From a virus: DNA of 21,932 nt. The notes under the pieces are model-generated. The model saw only the letters and a list, made by a program, of their open reading frames with translations. It did no database searches and had not been told where the DNA came from. Positions 1,331 through 18,649 of this stretch are shown one piece after another. A program made the translations under genes and the position numbers. The DNA lies in IMG/VR virus record IMGVR_UViG_3300032046_001766, positions 1-21,932 of that record. One strand, given 5' to 3'. Numbering within the stretch: the first letter of the stretch is position 1; each line of letters starts with the position of its first letter.

Positions 1331-1355
1331 AAAAAAACCGCTTCTTCAGCGGTTT
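1331..1355 (-). terminator. intrinsic terminator between promoter and HNH gene
   Basis: Read on the minus strand, AAACCGCT-GAAGA-AGCGGTTT is a perfect 8-bp stem with a 5-nt loop (arms 1348-1355 and 1335-1342), continuing into a T-run reaching 1331. It lies downstream of the promoter at 1384-1412 and 12 nt before ATG 1318. A short upstream GGTTT can compete for the AAACC of the first arm. Confidence 0.85.
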
Positions 1356-1383
1356 CTCAAATTCAATTCTAAAACCTGACTGA

Positions 1384-1412
1384 ATTATAATTCTTTTGAT
1401 ACTATTTGTCAA
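1384..1412 (-). promoter_or_regulatory. consensus sigma-70 promoter upstream of HNH gene
   Basis: Minus-strand TTGACA (1407-1412), a 17-bp spacer and TATAAT (1384-1389) form a perfect consensus match. It starts 3 bp after the stop codon of the fibre-like gene. The predicted RNA start is near 1377, so the terminator would be reached after about 47 nt. TATTGACAAATA is shared with the promoter at 8776-8804. Confidence 0.85.
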
Positions 1413-1415
1413 TAC

Positions 1416-2363
1416 CTATCTATAACATAAAAATATCAAAGCGATAGTTCCCGTTGGTGAACTGGCTTTCGTCCAGGTTAAGGTAAAACCATCAGCATCA
1501 AAACTTTTAACGATGGCACTTTGGACATCCCCTCCAGTTGGGTTATAATAGACAAGATTACTGGTCTTAGTGTAAAAATTTGTCGCATCCTTATAAAGCA
1601 TCATATTTGCTTTAGCACTATCAGCAACTCCCCAACCACCAATAGTGGTCCCATCAACATTCCAAAAACAAACAATGGAAGTTGGCTTAAATCCTACTCC
1701 CGTATAACCTATATCACCAGTTCCCGCCGCTGAATCTCTTGTCCCAGAAATCACTTTAGATGACAGAAAAGAACCAGAAATAGAAGCTCCAGAGGCATTA
1801 AGGTTGGTCGGAACATAAAGGGTTGAAATGGAAGCAATGGAACTTATAGCCATCCTTACCAAGGTAAGATTATCCGAATTTAAGACAGCAATAGAAGCCA
1901 CTGAAGAAACAGCGAGATTCCTTAGTTCCGCATAAACAATGGAACAAACTGAAGTTATTGCTAGCTTCTTGTTTTCTAAAGAGGCGATAGTGGCTTGAGA
2001 CATAATATGACCACCTATAGCAGTGTGTTCTGGATTAAAAGCATTGTAATACTCTTCCTGTAAGGCAGCTGTCATTACCGCTTCCACCACTGCACCAGAT
2101 GAATGGGCTTGTTGGGTGCTTCCACCTTGCGCCCTAGTTATCGTTAAAGTTCCACCGACAATGTTGGTAACTTTGACATATTCCCACAAAGAAGTTGATT
2201 TAAGAGTTCCAGCGGCATCCACTCGGTCTATAACTAAATAAGAAGGATAATTTAACTTTGTGGCATCACCAACATCCATTGAGGTAGCAACATCAGTGAT
2301 ACCAGCACTTAGTGTTGTTGATACATTCTCTACTTGTGATGCTCGGCTCAAATTTGCGCCCAT
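1416..2363 (-). CDS. tail fibre or receptor-binding-like protein
   Basis: This 315-aa protein has almost no Cys and is rich in Ser, Thr, Ala and Val. Residues 1-110 (ending around TITRAQGGSTQQAHSSGAVVEA) look like the small beta domain found at the start of many phage tail-associated proteins. Residues about 130-205 are a repetitive linker with alternating VSSVASIAVLN / ISSIASISTL blocks, suggesting a fibrous shaft. Residues 205-315 are a compact beta-rich end containing GTGDIGYTGVGFKPTSIV and the near-terminal LTWTKASSPTGTIAL, similar in style to small phage fibre tip domains. It forms its own transcription unit with a promoter-terminator module in front and another after. ATG 2361-2363 is separated from the terminator U-tract by only four bases and has no Shine-Dalgarno. 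Role in host attachment is inferred. Confidence 0.7.
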   Translation of the reverse strand: MGANLSRASQVENVSTTLSAGITDVATSMDVGDATKLNYPSYLVIDRVDAAGTLKSTSLWEYVKVTNIVGGTLTITRAQGGSTQQAHSSGAVVEAVMTAALQEEYYNAFNPEHTAIGGHIMSQATIASLENKKLAITSVCSIVYAELRNLAVSSVASIAVLNSDNLTLVRMAISSIASISTLYVPTNLNASGASISGSFLSSKVISGTRDSAAGTGDIGYTGVGFKPTSIVCFWNVDGTTIGGWGVADSAKANMMLYKDATNFYTKTSNLVYYNPTGGDVQSAIVKSFDADGFTLTWTKASSPTGTIALIFLCYR

Positions 2364-2367
2364 AAAT

Positions 2368-2389
2368 AAAAAACCGCCTTTCTAGCGGT
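2368..2389 (-). terminator. intrinsic terminator just before the fibre-like gene, with competing hairpin
   Basis: Minus-strand ACCGC-TAGAAAG-GCGGT (arms 2385-2389 and 2373-2377) runs into TTTTTT, and ATG 2361-2363 follows four bases later. The first arm can alternatively pair with an upstream AGCGGT (2405-2410), a perfect 6-bp match. The two pairings exclude each other, as in an attenuator. Confidence 0.75.
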
Positions 2390-2413
2390 ATTGATTCAAT
2401 CTTAACCGCTATT

Positions 2414-2442
2414 ATTATAACAATTTAATTCTTTTAAGTCAA
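2414..2442 (-). promoter_or_regulatory. near-consensus promoter upstream of fibre-like gene
   Basis: Minus-strand TTGACT (2437-2442), 17-bp spacer, TATAAT (2414-2419), with TGT before the -10 giving an extended -10. It lies 4 bp after the stop codon of the tail-hub-like gene. The predicted RNA start is near 2407, about 40 nt before the end of the terminator U-tract. It shares the 13-mer ATCTCTTGACTTA with the promoter at 5561-5589. Confidence 0.85.
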
Positions 2443-2446
2443 GAGA

Positions 2447-4408
2447 TTAAGTTTTCCAAGTTGCCGGATTAATCCCTTCCCCTAATTCTTGAGCTTGTAG
2501 CTGTAAAGACAATAATTCATATTTGTCATTATTTCCTGTTGTGGTAATTTCTATCTGACAGGTTCTTCCCACCTTATTAATTCTTGTTTGTTTAACCATA
2601 TCATTACTAGCTGCCGCATTACCGACACCAGCTGAAGTTCCAAATCTATTTGTTCCGAAGTTATCAAAACCCCAACCAACTCCAGCGTTGGAAGCAGAAA
2701 TGGTGAAAGTTCCAGCTGAACCAACCGCCCCCTCCCTTGTTTCTAAGATGATATTGACAAAGGGACTACCAAAGATATTTCTCCAATTGGAATAGATATT
2801 CCGCACCATCTTAAATTTAAAAGGATTATTAAAGGCGGTTTTCTTGGTTAATAAAGTCGTTTGAATTTTTACCCCCTTGTCATTGGCATAGGCATCAGAA
2901 TATTCGGTGACAAAGTTGTCAGTCGAATCTCCCCAAACTAAGTTCTCCTTACCGCTTCCATCATAATAAATCGCATAAACTCCAGGAACGGCTGGATAAG
3001 TATTTGGCCCCATCCAAGCCAGTCTTTCTCGGTCATAAACGATTTCTTTAGTATTGACATCACTTGAACCCATTGGAAAAGCTAACCGATATTTATTATT
3101 ATGATAAATCGCACAAGCCTTATCTAATTGGGTATTGGAAAGTAAAGAGAAGATGGGTCTGACTCTGGCTGATAACTCATTTGTTCTTAAAACATTCAAG
3201 AAATTAGCTTCATTCCCTAAAGTAAAAACACCCTTTCTTGACAAGAAGAAAACATCATTTTCCACATGACGAATCGTCTTATGAGAAACTGCCCCAACTC
3301 CTCTCACAATCATTTTAACTGATGGGATAACTAAACTTCCTGAAGTTGATAGAGTGACTTCCCAAATTGACCTTTCTTTGAAAACAATAATCTTATCCTG
3401 AAATTCAATTAACCCTTTAACCGCATCTCCAGCGTCCTTATCAATATCAACATATCCCCCACCATATCTCCAGTTAAACTTATCAATATTAGAACCACCA
3501 CCTGACCACGATATTCTGGAAGGAAAACTATCCAAATTGCCTAAAATCAATTTATCTTTATGGATAATCACATATTTGGCGATTGGACCTAGAGTCGTAT
3601 CTGCTCCAGGAGGGAAAACTAACATACTTGGGTCAGGCACCCCAAGATAATCAAAAGTCTTGGATGATGGGTCAGTTGTAGTGATTAGTCTTTCATCACC
3701 TTGGTCATAACCATAAACACCATAACCAGCCACATAAGAAGCAGGTGAAGCGGTTGTCCAAGTCAATCTAATTGCTGAAGTCATTAAATCTTGTGGCATA
3801 TTCGTAATTAAACACGCTTCTGAAGCAATCGTTTCCCCAACCGCACTAAAGGCTGATATACGGAATGAACGGGTAAAGGTTCCAGATGTTCCTGAAAGAT
3901 TAGTTGCTAAAACTCCTGTCGGTCTTGAGATTCCGACATAGGAATAAATTGTTGCCCCATCATATTTTGTCAACTCATCTATTCCATTAGTAATAAAAAC
4001 TTTGTTAAAGGCTTGGACTAATTCTGTATCATAACCAGAAGCATAGGAAGAACCATAAATCTCCGTATAAGAAGCCCCATTCTTTTTAACTAACAATCCC
4101 CAGTCTGATAAGGCGATTAATTCATTGACTCCTGAAGCCCCAGAAGCAAAGAGAACACCTTTTAAACCTCGGACTCTTTGTGAACCGGTCGCAACCGAAG
4201 GGGCAGTCTGAAAGTAATTAGCTGTTCCCTCTCTTTTAGTGGGAACACCTAAACCAACAAGTTTCAAATTATCACATTGAGCCAATTCTTTATCTTTAAT
4301 TTCTGTTTGACGAAGTAAAGTATTTAAACCCCCATTAAAAGCGTTCCAATCTAGTTGGAGTATTTTTGGTGCTTTATAAGGAGTCTCTTGAAATGAAAAA
4401 TTAGGCAC
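2447..4408 (-). CDS. large tail hub or nozzle-like virion protein
   Basis: About 653 residues from GTG 4408, beginning VPNFSFQETPYKAPKILQLDWNAF. A longer frame opens at TTG 4474 inside the upstream gene, but GTG 4408 has an AAGGG ribosome site nine bases upstream and follows the previous stop by 4 bp, so I prefer it. The protein is beta-rich throughout. It has short repeated motifs such as GVLFASGASGVNELIALSDWG, KVFITNGIDELTKYDG, IEFQDKIIVFKERSIWEV and DVFFLSRKGVFTLG that look like propeller blades, then a late beta domain. This style, together with the preceding 220-aa connector-like protein, resembles the gp11/gp12 (tail tubular A/B) pair of T7-like phages; that link is by layout and feel, not by a clear motif. 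It is last in its transcription unit. Confidence 0.65.
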   Translation of the reverse strand: MPNFSFQETPYKAPKILQLDWNAFNGGLNTLLRQTEIKDKELAQCDNLKLVGLGVPTKREGTANYFQTAPSVATGSQRVRGLKGVLFASGASGVNELIALSDWGLLVKKNGASYTEIYGSSYASGYDTELVQAFNKVFITNGIDELTKYDGATIYSYVGISRPTGVLATNLSGTSGTFTRSFRISAFSAVGETIASEACLITNMPQDLMTSAIRLTWTTASPASYVAGYGVYGYDQGDERLITTTDPSSKTFDYLGVPDPSMLVFPPGADTTLGPIAKYVIIHKDKLILGNLDSFPSRISWSGGGSNIDKFNWRYGGGYVDIDKDAGDAVKGLIEFQDKIIVFKERSIWEVTLSTSGSLVIPSVKMIVRGVGAVSHKTIRHVENDVFFLSRKGVFTLGNEANFLNVLRTNELSARVRPIFSLLSNTQLDKACAIYHNNKYRLAFPMGSSDVNTKEIVYDRERLAWMGPNTYPAVPGVYAIYYDGSGKENLVWGDSTDNFVTEYSDAYANDKGVKIQTTLLTKKTAFNNPFKFKMVRNIYSNWRNIFGSPFVNIILETREGAVGSAGTFTISASNAGVGWGFDNFGTNRFGTSAGVGNAAASNDMVKQTRINKVGRTCQIEITTTGNNDKYELLSLQLQAQELGEGINPATWKT

Positions 4409-4412
4409 ATTA

Positions 4413-5075
4413 TCAATCCCTTCCGATTCTCCAAGTTTTATAATCTTCTGAACCAACTGAAACTCGGCGGTCAACTGACGATTGACCTAAAGTATTCTCA
4501 TTTTCAATCATTCTGGCTAAAATCCTGTCTGCCTCCACTTTGGCTTCTGGAAATCTCCCATCTTCCCGACTCTTTAGAAGATAATATAAAGACCTTTGGA
4601 CTAAATAGGTTGGGTCGGGAAGAGGGATTAAATCACTCGCACTTGATAAAGTCGCTGGTGAAGCATAATAAGTGAATTGAACCGAAGCCCCTGAAACTAA
4701 GGTATCGTGAATAAACATGACTTTATTGCCTAAGATATTGACGAACCTATCAGAACTAAGGGTTCGATGATTGTTGGTCGCATCAATGACAGGATAGGAA
4801 TAGGTATTTACTCCGTCAGAGGTGATTTGAGGGAAACCATCTATCTTCCTAAAATCAGCTGGTAGGGCATAGGAAGCATTAGCCGAATCAGTAGACACTA
4901 AGCCATTAAAGACTTTCTTCATACATTCCCAATCGTAGGATTCACTCCAATCAATTAAGGAACGATTAATAAAGTTATTTCTGATATTCCAATCAGTCCC
5001 TCCATAAGTAGGAGCGGTAGCTGACTGGTCAACCTCGCTTGCTATCCAATTTTGAATATCCTGTAATGAACTCAT
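4413..5075 (-). CDS. head-tail connector or tail-adaptor-like protein
   Basis: This 220-aa protein starts MSSLQDIQNWIASEVDQ. An N-terminal helical part (to about residue 60, with WSESYDWECMKKV) leads to a central beta part (YALPADFRKIDGFPQI, VMFIHDTLVSGASVQFTYYASP). A helical C-terminus follows (LIPLPDPTYLVQRSLYYLLKSREDG, then EAKVEADRILARMIENENT). The pattern of helix bundle, beta insertion, then a helix after a loop of the PLPDPTY type is common in phage adaptor or gp11-like proteins placed just before the large tail-hub protein, as here. No Shine-Dalgarno is visible before ATG 5075. A short inverted repeat (5099-5112) precedes it. Function is inferred from order and fold style. Confidence 0.6.
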   Translation of the reverse strand: MSSLQDIQNWIASEVDQSATAPTYGGTDWNIRNNFINRSLIDWSESYDWECMKKVFNGLVSTDSANASYALPADFRKIDGFPQITSDGVNTYSYPVIDATNNHRTLSSDRFVNILGNKVMFIHDTLVSGASVQFTYYASPATLSSASDLIPLPDPTYLVQRSLYYLLKSREDGRFPEAKVEADRILARMIENENTLGQSSVDRRVSVGSEDYKTWRIGRD

Positions 5076-5509: not shown

Positions 5510-5538
5510 AAAAAAAGAGACCACTTTTTGTAGTCTCT
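5510..5538 (-). terminator. intrinsic terminator in the leader of the tail unit
   Basis: Minus-strand AGAGACTAC-AAAAA-GTGGTCTCT (arms 5530-5538 and 5516-5524, 9 bp with one G-U pair) runs into seven T. It lies downstream of the promoter at 5561-5589 and upstream of the GGAGGTGA ribosome site and ATG 5485. Confidence 0.85.
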
Positions 5539-5560
5539 CGAATAAACGATAACTTTCTCT

Positions 5561-5589
5561 ATTTTATACTTTTAAAGGGTATAAGTCAA
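5561..5589 (-). promoter_or_regulatory. near-consensus promoter of the tail unit
   Basis: Minus-strand TTGACT (5584-5589), 17-bp spacer, TAAAAT (5561-5566). It begins about 10 bp after the stop codon of the LamG gene. The predicted RNA start is near 5554, giving about 45 nt before the terminator ends. Confidence 0.75.
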
Positions 5590-6321: not shown

Positions 6322-8160
6322 TTACTCCGTAAAGTAAACTAGGTTTCCACCAATTCTAGCAACTGTAGAACCTATATCTTGTTTTTCGAAGTTAAGTGAA
6401 CCTGAAGGCAAACCAATCCAACACGGAGAATCGGGAGAACCGGACATTACAAATCCACCACCAGGCATTAAGGTTATACCTATCGAAGCATTACCTGTCA
6501 TATAAGTTGCTCCCGATTTAATCGCTATTCTCACGGTGGCATCTGAACTTAAAACAATATTAGTTAAGTTAACTGTTAAGTTAGTTCCTGGAACAACTAT
6601 TGTAGCTAAACTTGCTAATGAAAAGGCAATTGGAAGATTGTAAAGACTTTTGGCACTTCCGGCATTTCTTGTCCAAGCGGTGACTAGACCAATAAATTGA
6701 GTCCCTGCTCCTGAAACAACTGTATTTAATCCAGTCCAAGCGTCTGAGGCACTCAAAGTTACTAAGCCGATTTTAGAAGTTCCTGCCCCAGCGACAATAG
6801 TATTTAATCCTACCCAAGCTGGTGAAGCATTTAAAGTAACCAAGCCAATGTTTCGTGTTCCTTCGCCTACCACCACCGTATTTAGACCAATGAATCCCTT
6901 TGGGTCTGATAGGGTTATGTTTCCAGTAATCCCAACAGTTCCTGAAACAGAAACTAATCCAATCCATGTTTTAGGGTCAGTCCAGGCTAAACCATTACTA
7001 GCGGTTACCAAGCCAATCCAAGAAGCCGAGGGGTTTAAAGTAACATTACCAAAACCATGAGTAGAAGTTACTAAACCAATAAAAGTTGTGCCTACGGCAT
7101 TAACAGCCGTTACTAATCCTATAAATGTTTTACTGTCTGAAAGAGTAAGGTTACCAGTAATTTGTGTTTTACTCCCTGCATCAAGAGTGATATTACCCGC
7201 AAAACCAACCGAACCTGACACACTTACTAAACCAATCCATGCGTTGGAAGCACTTAAAGTTACTAAACCTATCTTTTGTGTCCCTATACCAAGCGTTGTA
7301 GTTGTCAGCCCAATATAGGTTGTAGCATCAGTTAAAGTAAGATTCCCTTTTAAAGCAATTGTATTAGCGACTGTCACTAAACCGATATAATTAGTGCTCG
7401 CACCAAGAATGGGAGCATTACCTATAGTAGCGGTTGTTAAACCAATGTAGGTTTTACTATCCGAAAGTGTCAGATTCCCTATAATCCCTGTGAGAGAGCC
7501 ATCATCCAAAGTAATATTGCCAGAGAAACCAACAGCACCACTTACAGAAACAAGACCAATATAGGCTTTCGGATCTGTCCAAGCGTTAGTGGAAACCAAG
7601 CCAATGTATCCTTTAGGGTCAGAAAGTGTTACTGTTCCTATTCCCCCAACAGTTACTAAACCGATAAATGCCTTAGAATTGCTTAAAGTAAGATTACCAC
7701 TAACTCCAACCAAAGAACCTACATCTAGGGTAACATTGCCCGAAAAAGTCACTGGAAGTGGGTTGGCAAACCCAGAAACAGAAACTAGCCCTATATAACT
7801 TTTACTATCGCTTAAAGTTAGATTTCCTTTAATCCCAGTAAATGAACCAGCATCTAGGGTAACATTACCAGAGAAGGTAACGGGAACCGTATTAGCAATG
7901 GTGACTAGACCAATATATGCATCTGAAGGATTGAGAGTAACTAAGCCAATTTTCTGTGTCCCTATTCCTAAAGTAGTTGTAGTTAAACCGATATAATTTT
8001 TAGAGTTAGATAGAGTTACATTGCCGGAGATGCCAATCGTATCCCCAATAATAATATCAGCCGAGACAACGGCATAAATAGTCGAAGCCGAGATAAGGCT
8101 TACTTTTTGAGCTTTTAAATTTGCATCATATTCTTCTCTAATTATATCTTGATAGTTCAT
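6322..8160 (-). CDS. 612-aa repeat protein, probable beta-solenoid fibre
   Basis: Residues 1-45 form an N-terminal part (MNYQDIIREEYDANLKAQ) that may anchor the protein to the particle. Residues about 45-495 hold 22 copies of a motif of the form [YFWKN]-x-G-L-[VTN]-[TS], mostly YIGLVT, FIGLVT, WIGLVS or KIGLVTL, alternating with GN[LVI]TLSDSK-like strands at intervals of roughly 11-25 residues. Such regular short beta repeats suggest a solenoid or trimeric shaft. Residues 500-612 are a non-repetitive C-terminal domain (SLYNLPIAFSLASLATIVVPG to the end) that could be the tip. GGAAGA precedes ATG 8160, which overlaps the upstream stop by 4 bp. Host attachment is inferred from fold style and from the LamG gene next to it. 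Confidence 0.75.
   Translation of the reverse strand: MNYQDIIREEYDANLKAQKVSLISASTIYAVVSADIIIGDTIGISGNVTLSNSKNYIGLTTTTLGIGTQKIGLVTLNPSDAYIGLVTIANTVPVTFSGNVTLDAGSFTGIKGNLTLSDSKSYIGLVSVSGFANPLPVTFSGNVTLDVGSLVGVSGNLTLSNSKAFIGLVTVGGIGTVTLSDPKGYIGLVSTNAWTDPKAYIGLVSVSGAVGFSGNITLDDGSLTGIIGNLTLSDSKTYIGLTTATIGNAPILGASTNYIGLVTVANTIALKGNLTLTDATTYIGLTTTTLGIGTQKIGLVTLSASNAWIGLVSVSGSVGFAGNITLDAGSKTQITGNLTLSDSKTFIGLVTAVNAVGTTFIGLVTSTHGFGNVTLNPSASWIGLVTASNGLAWTDPKTWIGLVSVSGTVGITGNITLSDPKGFIGLNTVVVGEGTRNIGLVTLNASPAWVGLNTIVAGAGTSKIGLVTLSASDAWTGLNTVVSGAGTQFIGLVTAWTRNAGSAKSLYNLPIAFSLASLATIVVPGTNLTVNLTNIVLSSDATVRIAIKSGATYMTGNASIGITLMPGGGFVMSGSPDSPCWIGLPSGSLNFEKQDIGSTVARIGGNLVYFTE
6676..8028 (-). repeat. coding repeat array of the fibre shaft
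   Basis: This stretch encodes the 22 copies of the aromatic-x-G-L-V-T motif. The clearest larger duplication is a 21-residue block coded at 7933-7995 and again at 7255-7317. The amino acids are identical while 15 of the 21 codons differ. Confidence 0.8.
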
Positions 8161-8726: not shown

Positions 8727-8749
8727 AAAAAAAGCCACCTTTCGGTAGC
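8727..8749 (-). terminator. intrinsic terminator abutting the start codon of the fibre unit
   Basis: Minus-strand GCTACC-GAAA-GGTGGC (arms 8744-8749 and 8734-8739; GNRA-type tetraloop, one G-U pair) is followed by seven T, and the next base is the A of ATG 8726. It is upstream of the gene and downstream of its promoter. Confidence 0.85.
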
Positions 8750-8754
8750 CCTCA

Positions 8755-8767
8755 CTAACAAAGTTAG
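8755..8767 (-). promoter_or_regulatory. dyad in the early leader of the fibre unit
   Basis: CTAAC-TTT-GTTAG on the minus strand is a perfect 5-bp dyad at about +2 to +14 of the predicted RNA. It could be an operator or a first leader hairpin; a GTTAG just upstream can compete for the same CTAAC. Confidence 0.4.
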
Positions 8768-8775
8768 ACTAACTG

Positions 8776-8804
8776 ATTATAAACCTTTAACCCTTATTTG
8801 TCAA
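8776..8804 (-). promoter_or_regulatory. consensus sigma-70 promoter of the fibre unit
   Basis: Minus-strand TTGACA (8799-8804), 17-bp spacer, TATAAT (8776-8781): a perfect match. The -35 lies in the last codons of the upstream glycosyltransferase and the stop codon (8794-8796) falls in the spacer. The predicted RNA start is near 8769, about 43 nt before the terminator ends. Confidence 0.88.
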
Positions 8805-9558
8805 TAAAACCGACATTTAAGGGTCTTGTTCCATTCTCTAAATCTTTCAAACATTTCTGATAGTATTCGCAACCCTTAAAGTAGGCTTTATCCCATTCTT
8901 CCCTTCCACCTATTCGGTCATGTTTCAAAGCCCGATACTCAATCCCCTTATCAATAAAGAAGTTATATCCTAATTTACTCATTCGCCAACACATCTCTTT
9001 TTCTGATAAAGCGGCGAATCTATCAAATTCTTTATCTAAACCGCCACAATCTAGTATTGCTTGTCTTGGTATCGAACATAAACACATTTCTACCTCATTA
9101 GGGCTAACTTCAAAGAAACTCTTATCACTTTGTAGGCTTCTTGGGTCAACCCAAACCTGATTTATAGGTCTTTCATCTAAATTCTTCTCATATTGATGAC
9201 CAATACCAGAAATCAAACCTTTAGGATTAGCTTGATAATGATTCCATAATCTAGTTAGAGTGTCTGGTGGAAACCAGATATAATCAACTATATCAACTAT
9301 AAGCTCGCCTTCAGCCTTATTATAAGCCAAATTCCACGCCTTGTTTAAATTATAGAAATCACTTGGTCTTTTAGGTGGTTCGATTAAAACAAGGGGCTGA
9401 GGATAACCAATTAAGGCATTTTCTACTTCTATTTCCATTTTCTTCGGAATAACAATTATCCACTCCCAATCGATAAAATCTTGCCTTCTAAGACATCTAG
9501 CGACCATTTTAAGCCCTTCAGGGCGTATGGTTGGGGTGAGAACACTAATTTTTAACAT
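8794..9558 (-). CDS. family 2-like glycosyltransferase
   Basis: 254 residues from ATG 9558 (MLKISVLTPTIRPEGL); a longer TTG start at 9588 is less likely because the fold begins with KISVLTPT. The GT-A features are the first strand and nucleotide-binding turn (SVLTPTIRP, 5-12), LNKAWNLAYNKAEGELIV (71-88) and, in the usual DxD position, VDIVDY (88-93), which keeps two Asp in a D-x-x-D spacing. Later EKEMCWRMSKLGYNFF matches the helix after the acceptor site. GT2 enzymes transfer a sugar from a nucleotide-sugar in the cytoplasm. This is the last gene of the island operon. It overlaps the previous gene by 14 bp. Confidence 0.82.
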   Translation of the reverse strand: MLKISVLTPTIRPEGLKMVARCLRRQDFIDWEWIIVIPKKMEIEVENALIGYPQPLVLIEPPKRPSDFYNLNKAWNLAYNKAEGELIVDIVDYIWFPPDTLTRLWNHYQANPKGLISGIGHQYEKNLDERPINQVWVDPRSLQSDKSFFEVSPNEVEMCLCSIPRQAILDCGGLDKEFDRFAALSEKEMCWRMSKLGYNFFIDKGIEYRALKHDRIGGREEWDKAYFKGCEYYQKCLKDLENGTRPLNVGFIDK

Positions 9559-10261
9559 ATTCTTGTAATTCTTTAGGTAATTCAACAATATCTATCTTGA
9601 ATCTTGTCCAGTCATCCTTAGCATAACCGCCATATTTGACCTTATTGGCGTGTTTATTCCTGACCCTTAATCTCTTGGGGTCTAATCTGGCGTAGTGGAG
9701 AATGGCAAAGCCCCTAACTGTCGGAGTAGCATTAACTATCCCTTCTGGGTCTTTATCATCAGAATAAGTAATTGAACAAAAAAAATCTTTAAACCAATGA
9801 AGATTACGATCATAATAAAAGACTTTTTGATTATGGTAAACAGATGTGCCATCATAGTGGAAAATGTCTTGGATCAGATTCATATGGTTAATAGGAATCA
9901 CAAGGGGACATTTTCTTTCGGGACTATCATAAATCGCAGGGTCAATCCAACCCTTGATATATTCCCTAAGTCCATATTCCGTCCTTTTTGACAACTTCTC
10001 ATCTTGGTCTATGGTTACTATCCATTGGTGCTTTTCAGTCTGCTTTAAAAGAAAATTGCGTTGATTACCTAAAGTATCGTATTTACGGTCAAATATCTTC
10101 AGGTTATAAATCTTTTTCCTATCTTCCAGAAATTCCCTTGTCCCATCTTTTGAACCGCCGTCAACCACATAAATTTCATCACAAACACAATAAAGGGATT
10201 CAATTGCCCTTAAAATATCAGGCATCCCATCTTGACAGACTAAATGACCAATAATCTTCAT
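9545..10261 (-). CDS. family 2 glycosyltransferase
   Basis: 238 residues from ATG 10261, chosen because it forms an ATGA overlap with the preceding methyltransferase and because the fold starts at MKIIGHLVCQDG; an ATG 12 bp upstream is also in frame. The GT-A motifs are clear: VVDGGSKDGT at 32-41 (nucleotide binding), NQRNF at 66-70, and DQDE at 85-88 as the metal-binding DxD. Residues beyond 170 (GFAILHYARLDPKRLRVRNKHANK) are typical of the COG0463-like group in which a His and several basic residues follow the acceptor part. It acts in the cytoplasm on a nucleotide-sugar; the acceptor is not predictable. Confidence 0.88.
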   Translation of the reverse strand: MKIIGHLVCQDGMPDILRAIESLYCVCDEIYVVDGGSKDGTREFLEDRKKIYNLKIFDRKYDTLGNQRNFLLKQTEKHQWIVTIDQDEKLSKRTEYGLREYIKGWIDPAIYDSPERKCPLVIPINHMNLIQDIFHYDGTSVYHNQKVFYYDRNLHWFKDFFCSITYSDDKDPEGIVNATPTVRGFAILHYARLDPKRLRVRNKHANKVKYGGYAKDDWTRFKIDIVELPKELQEYVKN

Positions 10262-10734
10262 TTCTGCCCCCATCCATAAATTGCATCTGGGTTTTCCTCA
10301 AAATAACAATCATTAAATCCTTCAAAAAACACATCTAAAGTTGGTCTTAAAAATCGGTAATAATCACTCGGCCAATCGTGAACACCACAGAGTAAAGAAG
10401 GAGCAACAATCAACATCCATCCACCTTTCTTTAAAACCCACCTCATATTCTCTACTGTTAGCCAAAACTTGTCATCGTGTTCCAGGGTATCAAGACAGAT
10501 AACCAAGTCAAAACAACCCTTTGGAAGAACTTTTTTTATATCGTGGGCATTACAAACAATGTCTGTATATTCTCCGCCATCTATCATATCCAACCCAATA
10601 TAATCTAAACCATGATTAACTAAAACTTCTTTGACAGTTCCATTGACATTCCTTGAACCAATCTCAAGAACCATTCCTGTAATGGGATGTTTCTCTAAAA
10701 AATCATATAGAAAGTTCCTACTTGATGATGTCAT
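10258..10734 (-). CDS. small class I SAM-dependent methyltransferase
   Basis: 158 residues with the Methyltransf_11-like core. VLEIGSRNVNGT (22-33) is the SAM-binding motif I. YIGLDM (45-50) carries the acidic residue after strand 2. CLDTLEHD (80-87) is motif II and WVLKKGGWMLIVAP (99-112) is the post-II strand. The C-terminal part is short (DYYRFLRPTLDVFFEGF, then FEENPDAIYGWGQK), and this is smaller than most members. It starts at ATG 10734 with GAGGT nine bases upstream inside the previous gene, and overlaps that gene by 4 bp. The substrate is likely a sugar or glycan, judging by the neighbours. Confidence 0.85.
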   Translation of the reverse strand: MTSSSRNFLYDFLEKHPITGMVLEIGSRNVNGTVKEVLVNHGLDYIGLDMIDGGEYTDIVCNAHDIKKVLPKGCFDLVICLDTLEHDDKFWLTVENMRWVLKKGGWMLIVAPSLLCGVHDWPSDYYRFLRPTLDVFFEGFNDCYFEENPDAIYGWGQK

Positions 10735-12011
10735 TTACTAATAACCTCAAATCTAGGTAAAGGAAACACCAATCTACCACCCTTTTTAATAAACCCTTGT
10801 TCTCTTTCGACAAATTCCTTTTTAAAGAACCAAGGTAAAACCAAGAAGATGTCGGCTTTAAACCTTGCTTCTTCTTCGGAAACAATCGGAATTCCCGTTG
10901 ATTTCATTACCCTCCCCCATTTATCAGGATTTCTTTCAGCCGCCCCTACGATTTGGGTATTATCTATCCCACAGAACTGAAGTAGGGTTCCACCCCTTGT
11001 TGAAGCCCCGTAAACATAAATCTTCTTGCCTTTTTCATTCTCTTGGTCAATAAAGTCTTTTAAAACCTGCCCATTGTTCTTAACCTTCTCGGCAAATAAC
11101 TGATAAGTTTCCCTTTCATCAAGTTCAGCATCAGTTTCATTCCTGCGCATCTTAATTGTTTCCCAACTCTCCCTACCCCCTATTTCACTTCCCTTATGAC
11201 GAATATAGGTTCTAAAACTACCACCATTGATATTGTTTTGCGAAACATCAAAAACTTCCAAACCATTTCTTTTTAATAAGGGTTCTAACGAGAGTAAAGA
11301 GTAATATTCTAGATGTTCGTGGCAGATATTGTCAAAAGCTAGTTGGTCTAACATTCCTTTTAGATAATTCTGTTGGATAACAAATACTCCGTCAGGATGA
11401 AGACAATCCCTAACACCTTGTAAAAACTTATTAGGATTGTCCAAATCGTAGAACATGGCAATAGCGGTGATAATTTTAGCGGAGTTCTTTGGGTATCTGT
11501 TTAAATAAAGTTCTTTTTTAAAGTAATCAACAAATAAAGACCATTTATCCGATGGTAAGGTGTGAAAATAATCTAAAGCATATTTAGCCACATTGATTGA
11601 GGGGTCAAAACCAACTCTAATTGGGTCTTTAGTGTAGGCCTTTAACAAAGTGCCATCATTACAACCTATATCAACGACAATATCATTCTGTTTTAAATCC
11701 ACAATTTGTTCTGACTTATGAGCAATATCTCCTAGCTCATTCCTCATGGTTTCGTTAACCCCTGATTTATAACCATATTCATTCCCCCATAATAAATCTG
11801 GCCTTGTGGTGTGCCTTAATTGAAGTAAATTACAATCACCGCATAAAACTAAGGAAAGAGGAACTTTCGGTGGTTTCTTGTCATCTTCGGTAAAAGAAAC
11901 AATCCTTTGGTCGCCCAATGACAGAACCCCCTCTAACTGAGGTGAATTACAAGAACGGCAGTTAGTTATTCTTTGATACTCTGGATTATAAGAACTTTCG
12001 TATTCAATCAA
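10731..12011 (-). CDS. NDP-sugar C-methyltransferase-like protein (zinc, SAM and C-terminal domains)
   Basis: About 426 residues from TTG 12011. This start has a perfect GGAGG (12020-12024) eight bases upstream and a TTGA overlap with the preceding gene; an in-frame TTG at 12026 has no such site. Domains in order: a zinc-binding N-terminus with C18-x2-C21 and C57-x2-C60; a SAM-binding core with VVDIGCNDGTLL (112-123); HEHLEYYSL (231-239); NINGGSFR (260-267); and a C-terminal Rossmann-like domain (KIYVYGASTRGGTLLQFCGID). This is the Methyltransf_13 / core / Methyltransf_14 layout of sugar C-methyltransferases such as those acting on dTDP-4-keto sugars. It suggests that the island makes or modifies an unusual branched sugar, unless the enzyme has another target. 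Confidence 0.88.
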   Translation of the reverse strand: MIEYESSYNPEYQRITNCRSCNSPQLEGVLSLGDQRIVSFTEDDKKPPKVPLSLVLCGDCNLLQLRHTTRPDLLWGNEYGYKSGVNETMRNELGDIAHKSEQIVDLKQNDIVVDIGCNDGTLLKAYTKDPIRVGFDPSINVAKYALDYFHTLPSDKWSLFVDYFKKELYLNRYPKNSAKIITAIAMFYDLDNPNKFLQGVRDCLHPDGVFVIQQNYLKGMLDQLAFDNICHEHLEYYSLLSLEPLLKRNGLEVFDVSQNNINGGSFRTYIRHKGSEIGGRESWETIKMRRNETDAELDERETYQLFAEKVKNNGQVLKDFIDQENEKGKKIYVYGASTRGGTLLQFCGIDNTQIVGAAERNPDKWGRVMKSTGIPIVSEEEARFKADIFLVLPWFFKKEFVEREQGFIKKGGRLVFPLPRFEVISK

Positions 12012-12706
12012 GGAAAAGGCCTCCAATTCTCTTTCATTTGTTCTGGATATTGTTTTTCAAACAAGACTTCGGGATATTCACCATATTTAGATTTAAAATA
12101 TTCCCGATTCCTTTTATCGTTCTCTTCCCTATTAGGAATCTTCTTTTGGGTGAAACTATCTAGGTGTTGATAACAAGCCTTGTTAGTATAGGCAGTTTTA
12201 AAAGTCTTTCTGAATTCCAACCAATATGCCCAATCTTCACAACTATTAAAATAATTGTCATCATAAAACTGGAATAATCTCATCACAAAGAAAGAACTTG
12301 AACACCATCTCTCTTTACCTTCTTTCCAAGTGTCATTACCAAAGGAAAAAGGTTCATCATAACCAATCATCCTAAAGTGAACACTCCCTACTTTCTCATC
12401 TTGTAAAATTTCTTCTGCGACCTCTAACCAGTTAGGAGAGACACGAATGTCATTATTGGCTACTACCACCGCATTTACCCCTAAACAGGCTTTAAGACCT
12501 AAATTTACAGCTCTGGCATAGCCTAAATTATTCTTTAGTCGAATATAGACATCAGCCATCTCTCTCATCTTGCCACCGCCTAAAGTTGAACCATTGTCAA
12601 TGATAAAAAAGACCGATTCTGGTGTTTTAAGAGAATTAACCGCATTTCCGGTTAAAACCATTGTTTCTTCGTCATTAGAGAAAACTGGGATTATTACTGG
12701 TATCAT
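12008..12706 (-). CDS. family 2 glycosyltransferase
   Basis: 232 residues from ATG 12706, which forms an ATGA overlap with the preceding small gene; a TTG at 12727 is in frame but adds residues before the first strand. The motifs are VIIPVFSNDEE (4-14), FIIDNGST (34-41), the GT2 helix NNLGYARAVNLGL (59-71) and ANNDIRVSPNWL (83-94), where NND replaces the more usual DxD. Later EDWAYWLEFRKTFKTAYTNKACYQH is the region that carries the catalytic ED in rhamnosyl-type GT2 enzymes. The C-terminal 45 residues are charged (KKIPNREENDKRNREYFKSK), as in WcaE- and rhamnosyltransferase-like proteins. It is a cytoplasmic sugar transferase with unknown acceptor. Confidence 0.87.
   Translation of the reverse strand: MIPVIIPVFSNDEETMVLTGNAVNSLKTPESVFFIIDNGSTLGGGKMREMADVYIRLKNNLGYARAVNLGLKACLGVNAVVVANNDIRVSPNWLEVAEEILQDEKVGSVHFRMIGYDEPFSFGNDTWKEGKERWCSSSFFVMRLFQFYDDNYFNSCEDWAYWLEFRKTFKTAYTNKACYQHLDSFTQKKIPNREENDKRNREYFKSKYGEYPEVLFEKQYPEQMKENWRPFP
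12020..12024 (-). promoter_or_regulatory. ribosome site deciding a TTG start
   Basis: Minus-strand GGAGG, eight bases before TTG 12011. It lies within the 3' end of the preceding glycosyltransferase gene and supports TTG as the real start of the C-methyltransferase-like gene. Confidence 0.65.
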
Positions 12707-12906
12707 TTGTTTAAATAATATATCCAATTTTTAAGATGAAACTTCGCTAAAAACTTTTTGATTCTTAATGGTTCCCATCTTAACCAACGCCCATCAATTT
12801 TAAATAAGGATTTACGATAAACTATCTGTCCAGATTGGACTTTGGCCTTTTTGTTTTCCCTGTGAATTTTGGGAATAATACCATCAATTCCAGAAATAAA
12901 CGTCAT
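12703..12906 (-). CDS. 67-aa basic protein of unknown function inside the island
   Basis: It starts at ATG 12906 (MTFISGIDGIIPKIHRENKK) with a 4-bp overlap with the glycosyltransferase upstream, and ends in a 4-bp overlap with the one downstream. This tight fit supports it as a real gene. It is strongly basic, with aromatic residues (WLRWEPLRIKKFLAKFHLKNWIYYL). No motif is recognised. It might be a small partner of one of the flanking glycosyltransferases. Confidence 0.6.
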   Translation of the reverse strand: MTFISGIDGIIPKIHRENKKAKVQSGQIVYRKSLFKIDGRWLRWEPLRIKKFLAKFHLKNWIYYLNK

Positions 12907-13709
12907 CCTTCTATTCCTTTCAATAATTGAGAAGCATAAATCTCAGCACTATAAAATTTCTCAATAAACTTTCTGGGTGATTTCACTTTTGAATCTAAAA
13001 ACTCTTGAAGATAAGTTAAAGCTCTATCGTTCTCACAAGTTATTTCTGGGAGCATATTCATACTCATAGATTCTAAAACAGTTCTTTCCGAACCATATTT
13101 AGCGGGGATAATAACATTCTCCGACCTTCGGTACAAATTCCTAATCTCTATCGAAGGCGTATATTCGGGGATAACCCGAACTCCATGTTTAAGACAAGCC
13201 ATTAATTCTTCCTGCCCATCCGGTTGGACTTCACCAACACATAAAAGTTTACTTCCTAATTTGGCGATACTTGATTGTCTTTTCCAAGGCGAAAAAGTTG
13301 CCGGATAAAAGTATTCAATATCCTTTTTGGTTTTATCAGGTGAAAAAAAGTCAGTATCAGTTCCAAAAGCCCTAATCGCCCTTAAACCATCCCGCCTGAC
13401 TAAATCATAGGTAATTGAGTTTTCCACAAAGACAACCTTTAGGTTTCTTAATTTCTCAACATTGGGTGGAAAAGTGCTTCCATAACATAGCCCCATTGGA
13501 CAACTATATTTCTTTTGTAAGATTGGTGAATTCTCGTCAGACCAGACTAAGATAAAATCATATTTATCTTCAGGCTCTTCCCCTAGAATCCAATCAACTT
13601 GATATTTCTTACCAATAATTTCAACTGCGGTTCTTAGACCATCTCGCCAATGAGGGAATATTTCTTTCGCCCTATCCCAAGCCCATACGAAACTTATTTT
13701 TTTAGCCAT
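12903..13709 (-). CDS. GT-B (family 4-like) glycosyltransferase, short form
   Basis: This 268-aa protein has the parts of a GT-B fold in shortened form. The N-terminal Rossmann half is at 1-115 (FVWAWDRAKEIFPHW, YDFILVWSDEN). The hinge motif GTDTDFFSP is at 116-124. The C-terminal half carries TFSPWKR (138-144), LLCVGEVQPDG (155-164) and YGSERTVLESMSMNMLP (205-221), which corresponds to the donor-binding E-x7-E region of GT4 enzymes. Typical GT4 proteins have 350-400 residues, so both halves are trimmed. It starts at ATG 13709 inside the preceding gene (16-bp overlap) without a clear ribosome site, so coupling is likely. Confidence 0.78.
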   Translation of the reverse strand: MAKKISFVWAWDRAKEIFPHWRDGLRTAVEIIGKKYQVDWILGEEPEDKYDFILVWSDENSPILQKKYSCPMGLCYGSTFPPNVEKLRNLKVVFVENSITYDLVRRDGLRAIRAFGTDTDFFSPDKTKKDIEYFYPATFSPWKRQSSIAKLGSKLLCVGEVQPDGQEELMACLKHGVRVIPEYTPSIEIRNLYRRSENVIIPAKYGSERTVLESMSMNMLPEITCENDRALTYLQEFLDSKVKSPRKFIEKFYSAEIYASQLLKGIEG

Positions 13710-14353
13710 ATACCAGTGGCAGCGTCAATATCTCCACCCCTCCTTTTTCTTTCGCCATCACCCCAAGACCAATATAGTTTTTTAAGGGGTAATTTTTTAT
13801 TTACAAATAAATGCATTAGGTAGATTATCTCCCGACCAGAGCCATCATAATTCTCATAAACCAAGTCTTTCCCATCCTCCCTCACCGCCCAGTCGTGAAT
13901 AATAACCAATCCACCTTTCTTGACTCTGGGAATGATATTCTTTAAATACCACTTACAATTTTCTAGGTCATGGTTGGTGTCAATCAAAACATAATCCAAT
14001 ACTTTGGGAACTTTGTCTAAATTGTCTTCGATTTTACCAATTAAAGTGGGTAACTGACCGCATAATTTCTTAATGTTTTTCGCACATTCATCTAAAATCT
14101 TTGGTTCCATCTCGGAAGCGACAAACTTAAATGGTTTTTTATTCTTTAATAAAGCAAACATCGTCAAACAAGCCGTGCCACCATAGGAAGTGCCAAACTC
14201 TAAACAAGAAGTGGGTTTGTATTTCCGAATGATTGAATAAATAATGGGTTCTGACCACTGGACATCAACTCGGTGTTCACTCATCCTTGGTGGGATATAG
14301 CCATCACCTGTCCAATATTTTTTAACTAGAGTTTTCATTTCTTCTAAATTCAT
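13694..14353 (-). CDS. class I methyltransferase, CmcI/Methyltransf_24-like
   Basis: This 219-aa protein has CLEFGTSYGGTA (50-61) as SAM motif I, FVASEME (77-83) after strand 2, YVLIDTNHD (121-129) with the Asp and His typical of the metal-assisted Methyltransf_24 and cephalosporin-hydroxylase-like group, and GGLVIIHDW (147-155). This group is common in polysaccharide-modification gene clusters and methylates hydroxyl groups of sugars or related small molecules. ATG 14353 has AAAGGAGAA just upstream, lying inside the preceding zinc-ribbon gene (32-bp overlap). The last 30 residues (WSWGDGERKRRGGDIDAATG) are basic and may be flexible. Confidence 0.85.
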   Translation of the reverse strand: MNLEEMKTLVKKYWTGDGYIPPRMSEHRVDVQWSEPIIYSIIRKYKPTSCLEFGTSYGGTACLTMFALLKNKKPFKFVASEMEPKILDECAKNIKKLCGQLPTLIGKIEDNLDKVPKVLDYVLIDTNHDLENCKWYLKNIIPRVKKGGLVIIHDWAVREDGKDLVYENYDGSGREIIYLMHLFVNKKLPLKKLYWSWGDGERKRRGGDIDAATGIWLKK

Positions 14354-14576
14354 TAATTCTCCTTTTTAACCTAAGGATTCTATTTATCCAGGCGAATAAA
14401 GATAAACTTTCTAAAATATCATCAATCTTGGATAATAATTTCCACCTGTAAAAGTTTTGTTCAGTATAGCCAGTCCTTTTACACTTGGGACACCATAAAC
14501 ACCATTGGAATCCCATGTTATGGTAGTATTTTAATCTATGGCCTTTATCACACCTTTGTCTTGATATTATTCTCAT
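14322..14576 (-). CDS. 84-aa zinc-ribbon-like small protein
   Basis: From ATG 14576 (MRIISRQRCDKGHRLKYYHN), which overlaps the preceding stop by 4 bp; an in-frame ATG at 14612 exists inside the upstream gene but lacks this fit. C9, H13 and then CLWCPKC form a probable one-zinc ribbon, followed by a basic helical C-terminus (RWKLLSKIDDILESL, NRILRLKRRINEFRR). Function unknown. Small zinc ribbons are frequent in phage gene clusters and may act in nucleic-acid or protein binding. Confidence 0.68.
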   Translation of the reverse strand: MRIISRQRCDKGHRLKYYHNMGFQWCLWCPKCKRTGYTEQNFYRWKLLSKIDDILESLSLFAWINRILRLKRRINEFRRNENSS

Positions 14577-15214
14577 TTTTTGATTACCATGCCAAAACCC
14601 GAATAATGGCAAGGATTAGTTATCTCAATCTTATCGTCTTGGATTGCCTCCCAAACGACAAACATATCATTTAAACGAATGTCATCAATCAAAATTACAC
14701 AGCCCTTGGGAAGTAAGGGCATATAAAGATTTAATTCCTTCATTAATTGACCTCCAAAATGGATGGTATCAATGAAGACCAAATCCGTTTTACCAATATC
14801 AAAGTCTTTAGGATAAATAGACAAATCTAAGTCATTACCGATTACCTTAATCAGTTGGGGATAATCCCTATCTATGGCTTCCCAATCTTTCATCCCCTCT
14901 TCGTAATCGGAAGCATCATCAACCGAATATAATTTGGCATCTTTTTCTAGTTGAGTCAGAATCATAATGGCTGAAAGACCAATACTTGCCCCAAGTTCAA
15001 TAACTTGTTTCGGCTTTAAGAATCTCACTAAACAGGCAAGATATTGATAATATAAATTAGCCTGCCCTGTTTTATTTAAAACTTCTAGTCTTTGCCCATC
15101 TGGGACTTTAACCAAAAAGGGCAATAAAGAATTAGGATCAAAATAATGTAGGTATTCGTGAACTTTTTTATCTAAATCGTTTGGGGTCAATGAATCGTTT
15201 ATCATGTTTGTCAT
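14573..15214 (-). CDS. class I methyltransferase, Methyltransf_24-like
   Basis: About 213 residues from ATG 15214; GTG 15223 and ATG 15205 are alternative starts and none has a good ribosome site. Motifs: QVIELGASIGLSA (70-82) binds SAM, YSVDDASD (96-103) carries the acidic residue after strand 2, LVFIDTIHF (145-153) is the Asp/His motif of this family and VILIDDI (173-179) the next strand. The fold is the same as that of the 219-aa methyltransferase further down the operon but the sequence is only distantly alike, so it is probably a paralogue with a different target. Sugar O-methylation is the likeliest job given the surrounding glycosyltransferases. Confidence 0.83.
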   Translation of the reverse strand: MTNMINDSLTPNDLDKKVHEYLHYFDPNSLLPFLVKVPDGQRLEVLNKTGQANLYYQYLACLVRFLKPKQVIELGASIGLSAIMILTQLEKDAKLYSVDDASDYEEGMKDWEAIDRDYPQLIKVIGNDLDLSIYPKDFDIGKTDLVFIDTIHFGGQLMKELNLYMPLLPKGCVILIDDIRLNDMFVVWEAIQDDKIEITNPCHYSGFGMVIKK

Positions 15215-15224
15215 TGTTCTCACA

Positions 15225-15329
15225 CTACTTTGAGCAGTATTTGTTCACTAATTCACCTGTTCTGCTTTTGGCAAAAGAGAACATCTCCTTTCCACAATAG
15301 ATATATTTAGTTTTAAACATCATTGTCAT
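15225..15329 (-). CDS. 34-aa Cys-containing micro-protein
   Basis: ATG 15329 overlaps the preceding stop by 4 bp (ATGA). It has one of the best ribosome sites of the window, GAGGAGGTGAT, with the core at 15338-15344 and eight bases before the ATG. The product has 34 residues with two Cys (C12 and C32; YIYCGKEM and KYCSK) and a basic character. The stop at 15225 lies 10 bp before the next ATG. The strong ribosome site argues for translation; it may work as a leader that feeds ribosomes to the next methyltransferase. Confidence 0.5.
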   Translation of the reverse strand: MTMMFKTKYIYCGKEMFSFAKSRTGELVNKYCSK

Positions 15330-15481
15330 TTTTTTATCACCTCCTCTAAATAAATATCTATCGCTCCTTGTTTAAATAATCTTTTAATTTCCGCCTTTGA
15401 CTTCTTAGTCATTCTGGCTAATGATGAAACTAGGTCAATCCTTATCCATTTATGTTTACCAATTTTCACTAGCATTTCCAT
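15326..15481 (-). CDS. 51-aa basic protein, weakly S4-domain-like
   Basis: ATG 15481 overlaps the stop of the preceding gene in the form TAATG, and its own stop overlaps the next ATG, so it is embedded in the coupled operon. The 51 residues (start MEMLVKIGKHKWIRID) include SLARMTKKSKAEIKRLFKQG, which resembles the helix-turn-helix part of S4 RNA-binding domains (as in TyrRS: SKSEARRLIKQG-type). It ends with charged residues. The likeness is weak and the protein is half the usual domain length, so RNA binding is only a suggestion. Confidence 0.55.
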   Translation of the reverse strand: MEMLVKIGKHKWIRIDLVSSLARMTKKSKAEIKRLFKQGAIDIYLEEVIKK

Positions 15482-16806
15482 TATTTCTTAATCTCCACTA
15501 ACATTTCCTTGTCTTGGTTGACAATAAATTGCTCTATTTTGTAATCTTTTAATAATTCCTTAAATTCTTCTTCTGTCCATAATCTCAAATGTCCAGAAGG
15601 TCTGGGGTCATCCCAGGGCTTAAGATGTTTCGGATTAGCATATTTATTCTTAATATGTTCTTCAACTCCGATATGGTCAGTTCTGGGAGTTGAAAGGTAG
15701 AGGCTACCATGGGGTTTTACTAAAGAAAAGGCTTTCTGGAGGGCTTTTTGTGGCTCTGGGATATGTTCTAGGAGTTCAAACATCACTACGGCGTCATATT
15801 GGCCGTTTTCTTCCATAAAATCTTTACAAACGAAGATTGCAGGTAAATCCCTAGCTCTTTTCTTAGCGATTTCAATCGAAGGTCGGTAAAGATTGATTCC
15901 AGTTGCCTGAATTCCTTTTTTAGCCAAAGTTAGGCATAAATAACCATCGGCACAGCCAATATCCAAGATTTCCCGATGACCCTTTTTAACGATTTCTTCA
16001 ACCAACCACTCAAATCTTGGGGCTAGTTTGGAACAATCAAAGGCAATCTCTTCGGAAACTGGAGTTTCAACTAACTCATGTTCATAATAATTCTTATAGA
16101 CTTCGGGTTTGAAGCAATGTTCGACTAAGGGATATATTTTCTTCTCAAATTCCGTGCCTTTTGACAACTTATAAGCCTTTAATGCCTGATTATGGTCTAG
16201 TAAATCCTCTAATCGCTTCTCTAAACTAATGGGTTTTCTAAATTCCTCATCCCATTGTTTAGCAATCTTATCCCAACCAAAGTTTGCCTCAGCCCAAGGC
16301 ATCATTTCTTTCCGTATCTCTTCTTGTCTTTTCTCATCTTTTAATAAACTGACTAATTGTTTAATATATTCGTCTTTGGTTTCTTGGTCGTAAATATCTC
16401 CCTCAACCTTGATACCGAAATGAACTGTCTCTCTAAGGGCAGCATAATTAACAACGACAGGAATAGCCCCCCAACATTGGGCTTTCATGGCGGTTATACA
16501 ACTAATCTCTCCGAAGTGCGTTGGATACATCCAGATAGCTGATTTTTCCATTTCTTCTCTAAGTGCCTGATGAGAGATACGCCCTAAGTGTGTTATTCCT
16601 GGTTGTGTCATCATCTTGTCCATATTATCTTTCCAAGCCATCCGTTCGGGATTGCCGGCATAAAATTTAGCGAAAAGCGTCCATCCATAGAAAATTGTTA
16701 AGGTGGCATCCGGAACTTGTTTATGAATCTCTGGCCACATTTTAAGGGCGTGTTCTAAGCCCCTATCATAAGAACTACCATATACCATAGAATGTGGATT
16801 TCTCAT
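15481..16806 (-). CDS. C-terminal half of a GT-B glycosyltransferase fused to a methyltransferase
   Basis: 441 residues from ATG 16806. Residues 1-190 are the donor-binding half of a GT-B enzyme: MVYGSSYDRGLEHA (7-20), DATLTIFYGW (33-42), GRISHQALREEM (75-86) and HFGEISCITAMKAQCWGAIP (97-116, the E-x7-E-type region). No acceptor half precedes it in the protein; that half is at the end of the upstream gene. Residues 190-260 are a linker. Residues 265-441 are a class I methyltransferase: LDIGCADGYL (281-290), GINLYRP (303-309), VVMFELLEHIP (340-350), LVKPHGSLYLSTP. GGAG at 16814-16817 is seven bases before the ATG, so separate initiation is plausible. The split is discussed as a finding. Confidence 0.85.
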   Translation of the reverse strand: MRNPHSMVYGSSYDRGLEHALKMWPEIHKQVPDATLTIFYGWTLFAKFYAGNPERMAWKDNMDKMMTQPGITHLGRISHQALREEMEKSAIWMYPTHFGEISCITAMKAQCWGAIPVVVNYAALRETVHFGIKVEGDIYDQETKDEYIKQLVSLLKDEKRQEEIRKEMMPWAEANFGWDKIAKQWDEEFRKPISLEKRLEDLLDHNQALKAYKLSKGTEFEKKIYPLVEHCFKPEVYKNYYEHELVETPVSEEIAFDCSKLAPRFEWLVEEIVKKGHREILDIGCADGYLCLTLAKKGIQATGINLYRPSIEIAKKRARDLPAIFVCKDFMEENGQYDAVVMFELLEHIPEPQKALQKAFSLVKPHGSLYLSTPRTDHIGVEEHIKNKYANPKHLKPWDDPRPSGHLRLWTEEEFKELLKDYKIEQFIVNQDKEMLVEIKK

Positions 16807-18560: not shown

Positions 18561-18586
18561 AAAAAAAGGACTCCGATTTGGAGTCC
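18561..18586 (-). terminator. intrinsic terminator abutting the first start codon of the island
   Basis: Minus-strand GGACTCC-AAATC-GGAGTCC (arms 18580-18586 and 18568-18574, perfect 7 bp) is followed by seven T (18561-18567) and then immediately by ATG 18560. It lies between the island promoter and the first gene. Confidence 0.88.
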
Positions 18587-18595
18587 ACCCTTAAG

Positions 18596-18609
18596 ATACA
18601 ATCTTGTAT
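18596..18609 (-). promoter_or_regulatory. 14-bp dyad just after the island promoter
   Basis: ATACAA-TC-TTGTAT is a perfect 6-bp inverted repeat at about +6 to +19 from the predicted RNA start. It has the size and place of a repressor operator, or could fold as a first leader hairpin. Confidence 0.5.
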
Positions 18610-18620
18610 GGAACAACTAG

Positions 18621-18649
18621 ATTATAGTATATCAGTCCTTTTTTGTCAA
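18621..18649 (-). promoter_or_regulatory. consensus sigma-70 promoter of the glycosylation island
   Basis: Minus-strand TTGACA (18644-18649), 17-bp spacer, TATAAT (18621-18626): a perfect match. The TGA inside TTGACA is the stop codon of the upstream gene. The predicted RNA start is near 18614, about 54 nt before the terminator ends. Confidence 0.9.

Follow-up and report, generated by a model that had tools for sequence, protein, structure and literature searches.

Analysis of the window, by which the whole stretch of 21,932 nucleotides is meant, indicated that this 21.9-kb IMG/VR virus record carries a late gene cluster located entirely on the minus strand. The cluster contains genes for an SU10-type capsid protein and an SU10-type adaptor, tail and fibre genes, and an extended series of glycosyltransferase and methyltransferase genes. 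Between the capsid and tail genes (8794-18560) there are about a dozen genes for glycosyltransferases, methyltransferases and related proteins, an arrangement conserved throughout the clade, and the 612-aa late protein encoded at 6322-8160 is built from numerous degenerate repeats with the pattern GNxTLSDSKxYIGLVTV.

Five copies of one layout, promoter, leader, terminator hairpin and gene, were identified in the window, with -10 boxes at 1389, 2419, 5566, 8781 and 18626. The intrinsic-terminator hairpin is designated HP2 and the antiterminator hairpin that pairs with the 5' arm of HP2 is designated HP1. All five strong intergenic coding-strand promoters predicted in the window (at least 10/12 matches) are followed by HP2 within 40 nt. 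The features of the five leaders are as follows.

1384 to 1412, minus strand: promoter of the HNH-gene leader, TTGACA-17-TATAAT
1351 to 1376, minus strand: HP1 of the HNH-gene leader, canonical, GGTTTT A GAAT TGA ATTT GA GAAACC
1335 to 1355, minus strand: HP2 terminator of the HNH-gene leader
2414 to 2442, minus strand: sigma70-type promoter of the fibre leader, TTGACT-17-TATAAT, TG before the -10 box, predicted +1 at 2407
2384 to 2410, minus strand: HP1 of the fibre leader, AGCGGT TAA GAT TGA ATC AAT ACCGCT, of which local RNA has only the part from GGT (2407)
2373 to 2389, minus strand: HP2 terminator of the fibre leader, segments 2 and 3 (see below), U-tract at 2372-2367
1416 to 2363, minus strand: fibre-like tail gene, 315 aa, N-terminal part matching the PHROG tail fibre, ATG 9 nt past HP2
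5561 to 5589, minus strand: promoter of the leader of a 121-aa late gene, TTGACT-17-TAAAAT
5532 to 5554, minus strand: HP1 of the 121-aa-gene leader, weak and non-canonical, AGTT A TCG TTTATT CGA GA GACT
5516 to 5538, minus strand: HP2 terminator of the 121-aa-gene leader, then AAAGGAGGTGA and the ATG at 5485
8776 to 8804, minus strand: promoter of the leader upstream of a 193-aa gene frame, TTGACA-17-TATAAT
8746 to 8771, minus strand: HP1 of the 193-aa-gene leader, TAGTCT A ACT TTGTT AGT GA GGGCTA, 21.7 bits, a training sequence of the covariance model
8734 to 8749, minus strand: HP2 terminator of the 193-aa-gene leader, ATG 7 nt past the hairpin
18621 to 18649, minus strand: promoter at the head of the glycosyltransferase operon, TTGACA-17-TATAAT
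18584 to 18612, minus strand: HP1 of the glycosyltransferase operon, variant, TCCAT AC AAGAT TGT ATCTT AAGG GTGGA
18568 to 18586, minus strand: HP2 terminator of the glycosyltransferase operon, ATG of the 585-aa gene 7 nt past the hairpin

The HP1 of the HNH-gene leader was also matched by the covariance model, of which it was a training sequence (1375-1352, 22.6 bits). HNH-type endonuclease genes or fragments are found directly behind the element at 893-1318 of the window and in two relatives, L085 (about 3840-4000) and L086 (about 4900-4990); in each of these two, one such gene appears to separate the terminator from the fibre gene, as though it had been inserted in the leader and had taken over the switch. 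Several late genes, with leaders such as L083 3460 and window 18568, have the ATG a few bases past the U-tract and no clear Shine-Dalgarno sequence; by contrast, the small decoration-like gene has a perfect AAAGGAGGTGA.

In the fibre leader (2368-2419), a sequence-only reading had proposed three minus-strand segments able to pair either as 1-2 or as 2-3, and these were located as described: AGCGGT at 2410-2405, ACCGCT at 2389-2384 and GCGGT at 2377-2373 (GGCGGT with its first G). Pairing 2-3 gives the terminator-like hairpin ACCGCT AGAAA GGCGGT (-7.7 kcal/mol) followed by TTTTTT, and pairing 1-2 gives the antiterminator AGCGGT...ACCGCT with the inner stem-loop GAT-TGA-ATC (-8.4 kcal/mol), which 3 of 200 shuffles matched in folding. 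The local promoter is likewise present, with 11/12 consensus matches. The mutual exclusion of the two hairpins is a design kept throughout the phage group, and each of the three strands shows compensatory change. The single fibre copy alone would be a modest coincidence, and it is the repetition of the element that raises the observation above chance.

The clade was sampled as about 20 viral contigs found as relatives of the capsid protein, the fibre and the adjoining 675-aa protein, their capsid proteins being 67-75% identical to that of the window. A search of 226 kb of the clade revealed 36 leaders with promoter and terminator (33 distinct), against one or two in dinucleotide shuffles; no such leader was found in 556 kb of distant relatives with about 22-34% identity in the 675-aa protein. 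Besides the five of the window, HP2 is present at most of the intergenic coding-strand promoters in other clade members. The copies of the 41-kb members precede the portal gene, the glycosyltransferase operon, the small decoration-like gene and the fibre, tail and lysis genes, and most coding-strand intergenic promoters elsewhere in those genomes lack the element. To judge from these genomes, nearly every late-gene promoter has the terminator and HP1, and the phages appear to keep their structural genes behind a common RNA switch. Viral contigs scanned with a loose DNA pattern yielded 59 matches, of which about 8 are real. A stricter promoter-plus-hairpin pattern gave 48 matches in species genomes, none with a terminator hairpin behind it; the element was therefore not found in bacterial genes.

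Comparison of the HP1 sequences revealed a constant shape of 24 nt, composed of an outer stem of 4-5 bp, a single A on the 5' side, an inner stem of 4 bp, a URN triloop and 2 nt on the 3' side. In 21 ungapped sequences 91% of the cells are paired, double changes occur at 8 of the 9 pairs and the covariation is 0.92, against 0.26 when shuffled and at most 0.20 when slid. These 21 aligned sequences were selected for pairing (at least 7/9), which inflates the alignment statistics, and three less biased tests were therefore run. In the first, all nine pairs are present in 10 of 35 elements that had been selected by promoter and terminator alone, against 1.5 with swapped arms (maximum 6 in 1000) and 0.04 expected with shuffled leaders. 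In the second, a search for HP1 that made no demand for overlap found that 15 of 16 good hairpins overlap the 5' arm of HP2 by 3-7 nt. At 77 of the 88 overlapped positions the base pairs with both the HP1 5' strand and the HP2 3' strand, against 39 when shuffled. RNA folded from +1 to the end of the HP2 5' arm had a mean minimum free energy of -4.81 kcal/mol, against -3.36 kcal/mol with arms swapped, and none of 300 swaps was as low.

In the third test, the covariance model recovered HP1 in all four held-out leaders (L186, L187 and L196, found after the model was fixed, and L185, outside the training set) with 21.5-24.3 bits and exactly at the portal leader. It gave 28 matches in 295 kb of the clade, and those compared with the leader lists are coding-strand leaders; the best score in 310 kb outside the clade was 16.7 bits. 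In about five leaders the parser found no HP1, or a weak one only. Comparison of sequences establishes the two hairpins and the overlap between them, the covariation of the three strands, and the constancy of the unpaired A and the URN triloop. Two other kinds of element were considered and rejected: a DNA-operator palindrome, since the arms vary by compensatory pairs and their sequence is not kept, and an N4-type hairpin promoter, since the promoter is a near-perfect sigma70 one and the hairpin follows it.

The overlap also bears on a reading without any switch, in which HP2 would be the leaky 3' terminator of the preceding unit, situated beyond the next promoter, and HP1 a hairpin protecting the 5' end of the mRNA. 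The promoters do directly follow the stop codon of the preceding unit, which has no terminator of its own, and HP2 would therefore end the upstream RNA too. Such a reading leaves unexplained why HP1 uses the HP2 5' arm as its 3' strand in 15/16 cases and why the three strands covary, since a protective hairpin would avoid the overlap, and we consider it improbable.

The sequence-only reading had gone on to propose that the element distinguishes its own RNA, which would lack part of segment 1 and stop, from RNA read in from upstream, which would pass. For the fibre copy this was borne out by folding calculation: for RNA begun at 2407 P(HP2) is 0.95, and inclusion of 2413-2408 lowers it to 0.03; it also varies with the start, being 0.66 from 2409 and 0.24 from 2410. 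As a function of the element the claim did not hold. None of 33 other elements shows a difference between the two RNAs above 0.3 in P(HP2), and the pairing gained from nucleotides upstream of +1 is at chance level (means of -1.12 against -1.06 kcal/mol with swapped arms). In most copies the situation is the opposite of that proposed: HP1 mostly starts at +1 to +3 relative to the predicted start, and locally begun RNA therefore carries the antiterminator. Segment 1 is not kept in orthologous fibre leaders; in the relative L002 the stem 2-3 is perfect and ATGGTT replaces AGCGGT, the common part being only GGTT, which begins at the predicted +1 of L002. The fibre HP1 is furthermore an outlier in shape, with a 3x3 internal loop, and is absent from the covariance model R1 list at E up to 5. 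Because none of the 33 other elements behaves in this way and segment 1 is not kept in orthologues, the distinction made by the fibre copy is probably an accident of its discriminator sequence and incidental, and that the element in general passes upstream RNA and stops its own is very improbable indeed.

For RNA from the predicted +1, HP2 was calculated to be favoured at equilibrium in all copies (P about 0.95), so that the calculated default is termination after about 40-60 nt. The explanation that we favour, with somewhat better than even confidence, is a termination/antitermination switch of the late modules that is off by default and in which HP1 is held by a putative factor. Each late transcription unit would start from a sigma70-type promoter of its own, and in the leader directly behind it HP1 and HP2, sharing a strand, would exclude each other. 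The single A and the triloop would be the features by which HP1 is recognised by a factor made or activated during infection, either a phage or a host RNA-binding protein; HP1 held by this factor would stop HP2 from forming and RNA polymerase would enter the late module. One such factor may jointly switch on the portal, capsid/glycosyltransferase, decoration, fibre and tail units.

The position of the ATG 5-12 nt past HP2 in many leaders, together with the presence of GGAG, AAAGG or GGTG in some HP2 arms, would also suit a translational switch, in which the HP2 3' arm contains a ribosome-binding site near the ATG, HP1 frees it and termination is secondary. Many short leaders lack such a motif, however, the leaders of the small decoration genes have a separate AAAGGAGGTGA downstream of HP2, and the T6-8 tract directly past HP2 is a feature of terminators; the translational reading is accordingly quite unlikely.

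Candidates for the factor of the favoured switch were sought among the phage proteins. The CAT_RBD domain was found in none of 12 phage records and the ANTAR domain in none of 10, the latter being a weak test because none of 14 control genomes passed the curated cut-off either, and no early protein common to all clade members was found. A protein of about 105 aa (L170 14943-15257 and orthologues), encoded just upstream of the portal element, is present in all members examined and has no Pfam match; it is the sole protein conserved beside the portal element in all of them, and its structure model is of low confidence (pLDDT 65). It was dropped as a candidate regulator, since a homologue seems, from the upstream sequence, to be present in L197, which is without the element.

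That neither these domains nor a common early protein was found in the phages favours a mechanism acting in cis only, in which HP1 folds first and either delays HP2, giving a fixed partial read-through, or acts on the polymerase in the manner of HK022 put. HP1 is indeed transcribed first, at the extreme 5' end, and putL lies just downstream of its own promoter and requires no dedicated protein (PMC9378689). HP1 is, however, weak (-3 to -8 kcal/mol) compared with HP2 (-7 to -16) and should open in time for HP2 to form; put comprises about 70 nt with two stem-loops against 24 nt for HP1; and the fixed unpaired A and URN loop suggest recognition by something. We regard a cis-only mechanism as rather unlikely, though it deserves more weight than the other alternatives.

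A search for the capsid protein in 84,980 species genomes gave no match. Among 380 genomes of the phylum containing a Ca. Kaiserbacteria MAG (Patescibacteria group), one contig, G127 C1 (L270-L274), is a syntenic relative, with terminase, capsid protein and then glycosyltransferase genes in the same order. The contig continues into genes for peptide deformylase, methionyl-tRNA formyltransferase, HU and MgsA/RarA, which gives it the appearance of a bacterial chromosome carrying a prophage. In the terminase gene of this contig the ATG is immediately preceded by a terminator, which in turn overlaps with a longer hairpin. Since this probable prophage is syntenic with the clade, a host among the tiny Patescibacteria is likely for these phages.

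A search of Rfam 15 gave no family at or above the gathering cut-off, the best sub-threshold E value being 0.13, and a permissive threshold gave chance matches only. More tentatively, the elements may represent a new RNA family: a phage-wide late-gene regulon of Patescibacteria phages, controlled by strand-sharing antitermination with one RNA-binding factor for the same hairpin. That factor might be a phage protein with no recognised relatives, and possibly a component of the virion that acts back on its own genes. The 24-nt hairpin would offer a directly testable RNA target that points to an undiscovered RNA-binding regulator, and the switch would rank among the first proposals of a gene-control mechanism in Patescibacteria phages.

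Among RNA hairpins recognised by phage proteins, that of the Q-beta operator carries a bulged A and has a loop of 3 nt. The coat-protein operators of MS2 and Q-beta are hairpins recognised by protein in which the loop is short and one purine of the stem is unpaired (PMC3561173); their likeness to HP1 is one of shape only, as they belong to RNA phages, act in translational repression and have no terminator.

Phage systems that place a promoter and then a terminator ahead of genes, as found here, include lambda Q (pR'-tR') and HK022 put, the lambdoid genes lying behind terminators (PMC9378689, PMC6606751). They differ in that Q binds promoter DNA and put remodels the polymerase for distant terminators, and the two stem-loops and about 70 nt of put are not found in the single 24-nt HP1. 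Neither system is known to have an antiterminator that shares a strand with the terminator and recurs at every unit.

The general kind of the element, judged from its sequence, is that of an attenuator, with an intrinsic terminator between promoter and gene and a covarying alternative hairpin that shares a strand with it. Alternative terminator/antiterminator leaders of this type are known from bacteria through a survey of premature terminators, the text of which does not mention phages (PMC2965389). The RAT of BglG, SacY and LicT is, like HP1, a small antiterminator hairpin that overlaps an intrinsic terminator at its 5' arm; it shows asymmetric internal looping and binds a protein that tips the balance; RAT has two asymmetric internal loops, while HP1 has one (1x2 nt) in its 24 nt (PMC3369936). 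In addition, no CAT_RBD protein was found in the phages, and phage late units are controlled here instead of the sugar operons controlled by RAT. The eut cluster of the ANTAR type (AmiR, NasR, EutV) resembles the phage leaders in that several leaders of one regulon carry a common antiterminator stem overlapping the terminator, but ANTAR targets consist of stem-loops P1 and P2 with loops sharing A1 and G4 (PMC3369936) and the phage element of a single hairpin with a URN triloop. In the proposed switch the element would work like LicT-RAT or ANTAR; it belongs to neither family, and no description of such a switch for phage late genes was found in the open-access literature. Phage late genes are known to be controlled by sigma factors, activators, the phages' own polymerases or polymerase-modifying antiterminators; a small strand-sharing antiterminator at every late unit would, if true, be a different layout for phages.
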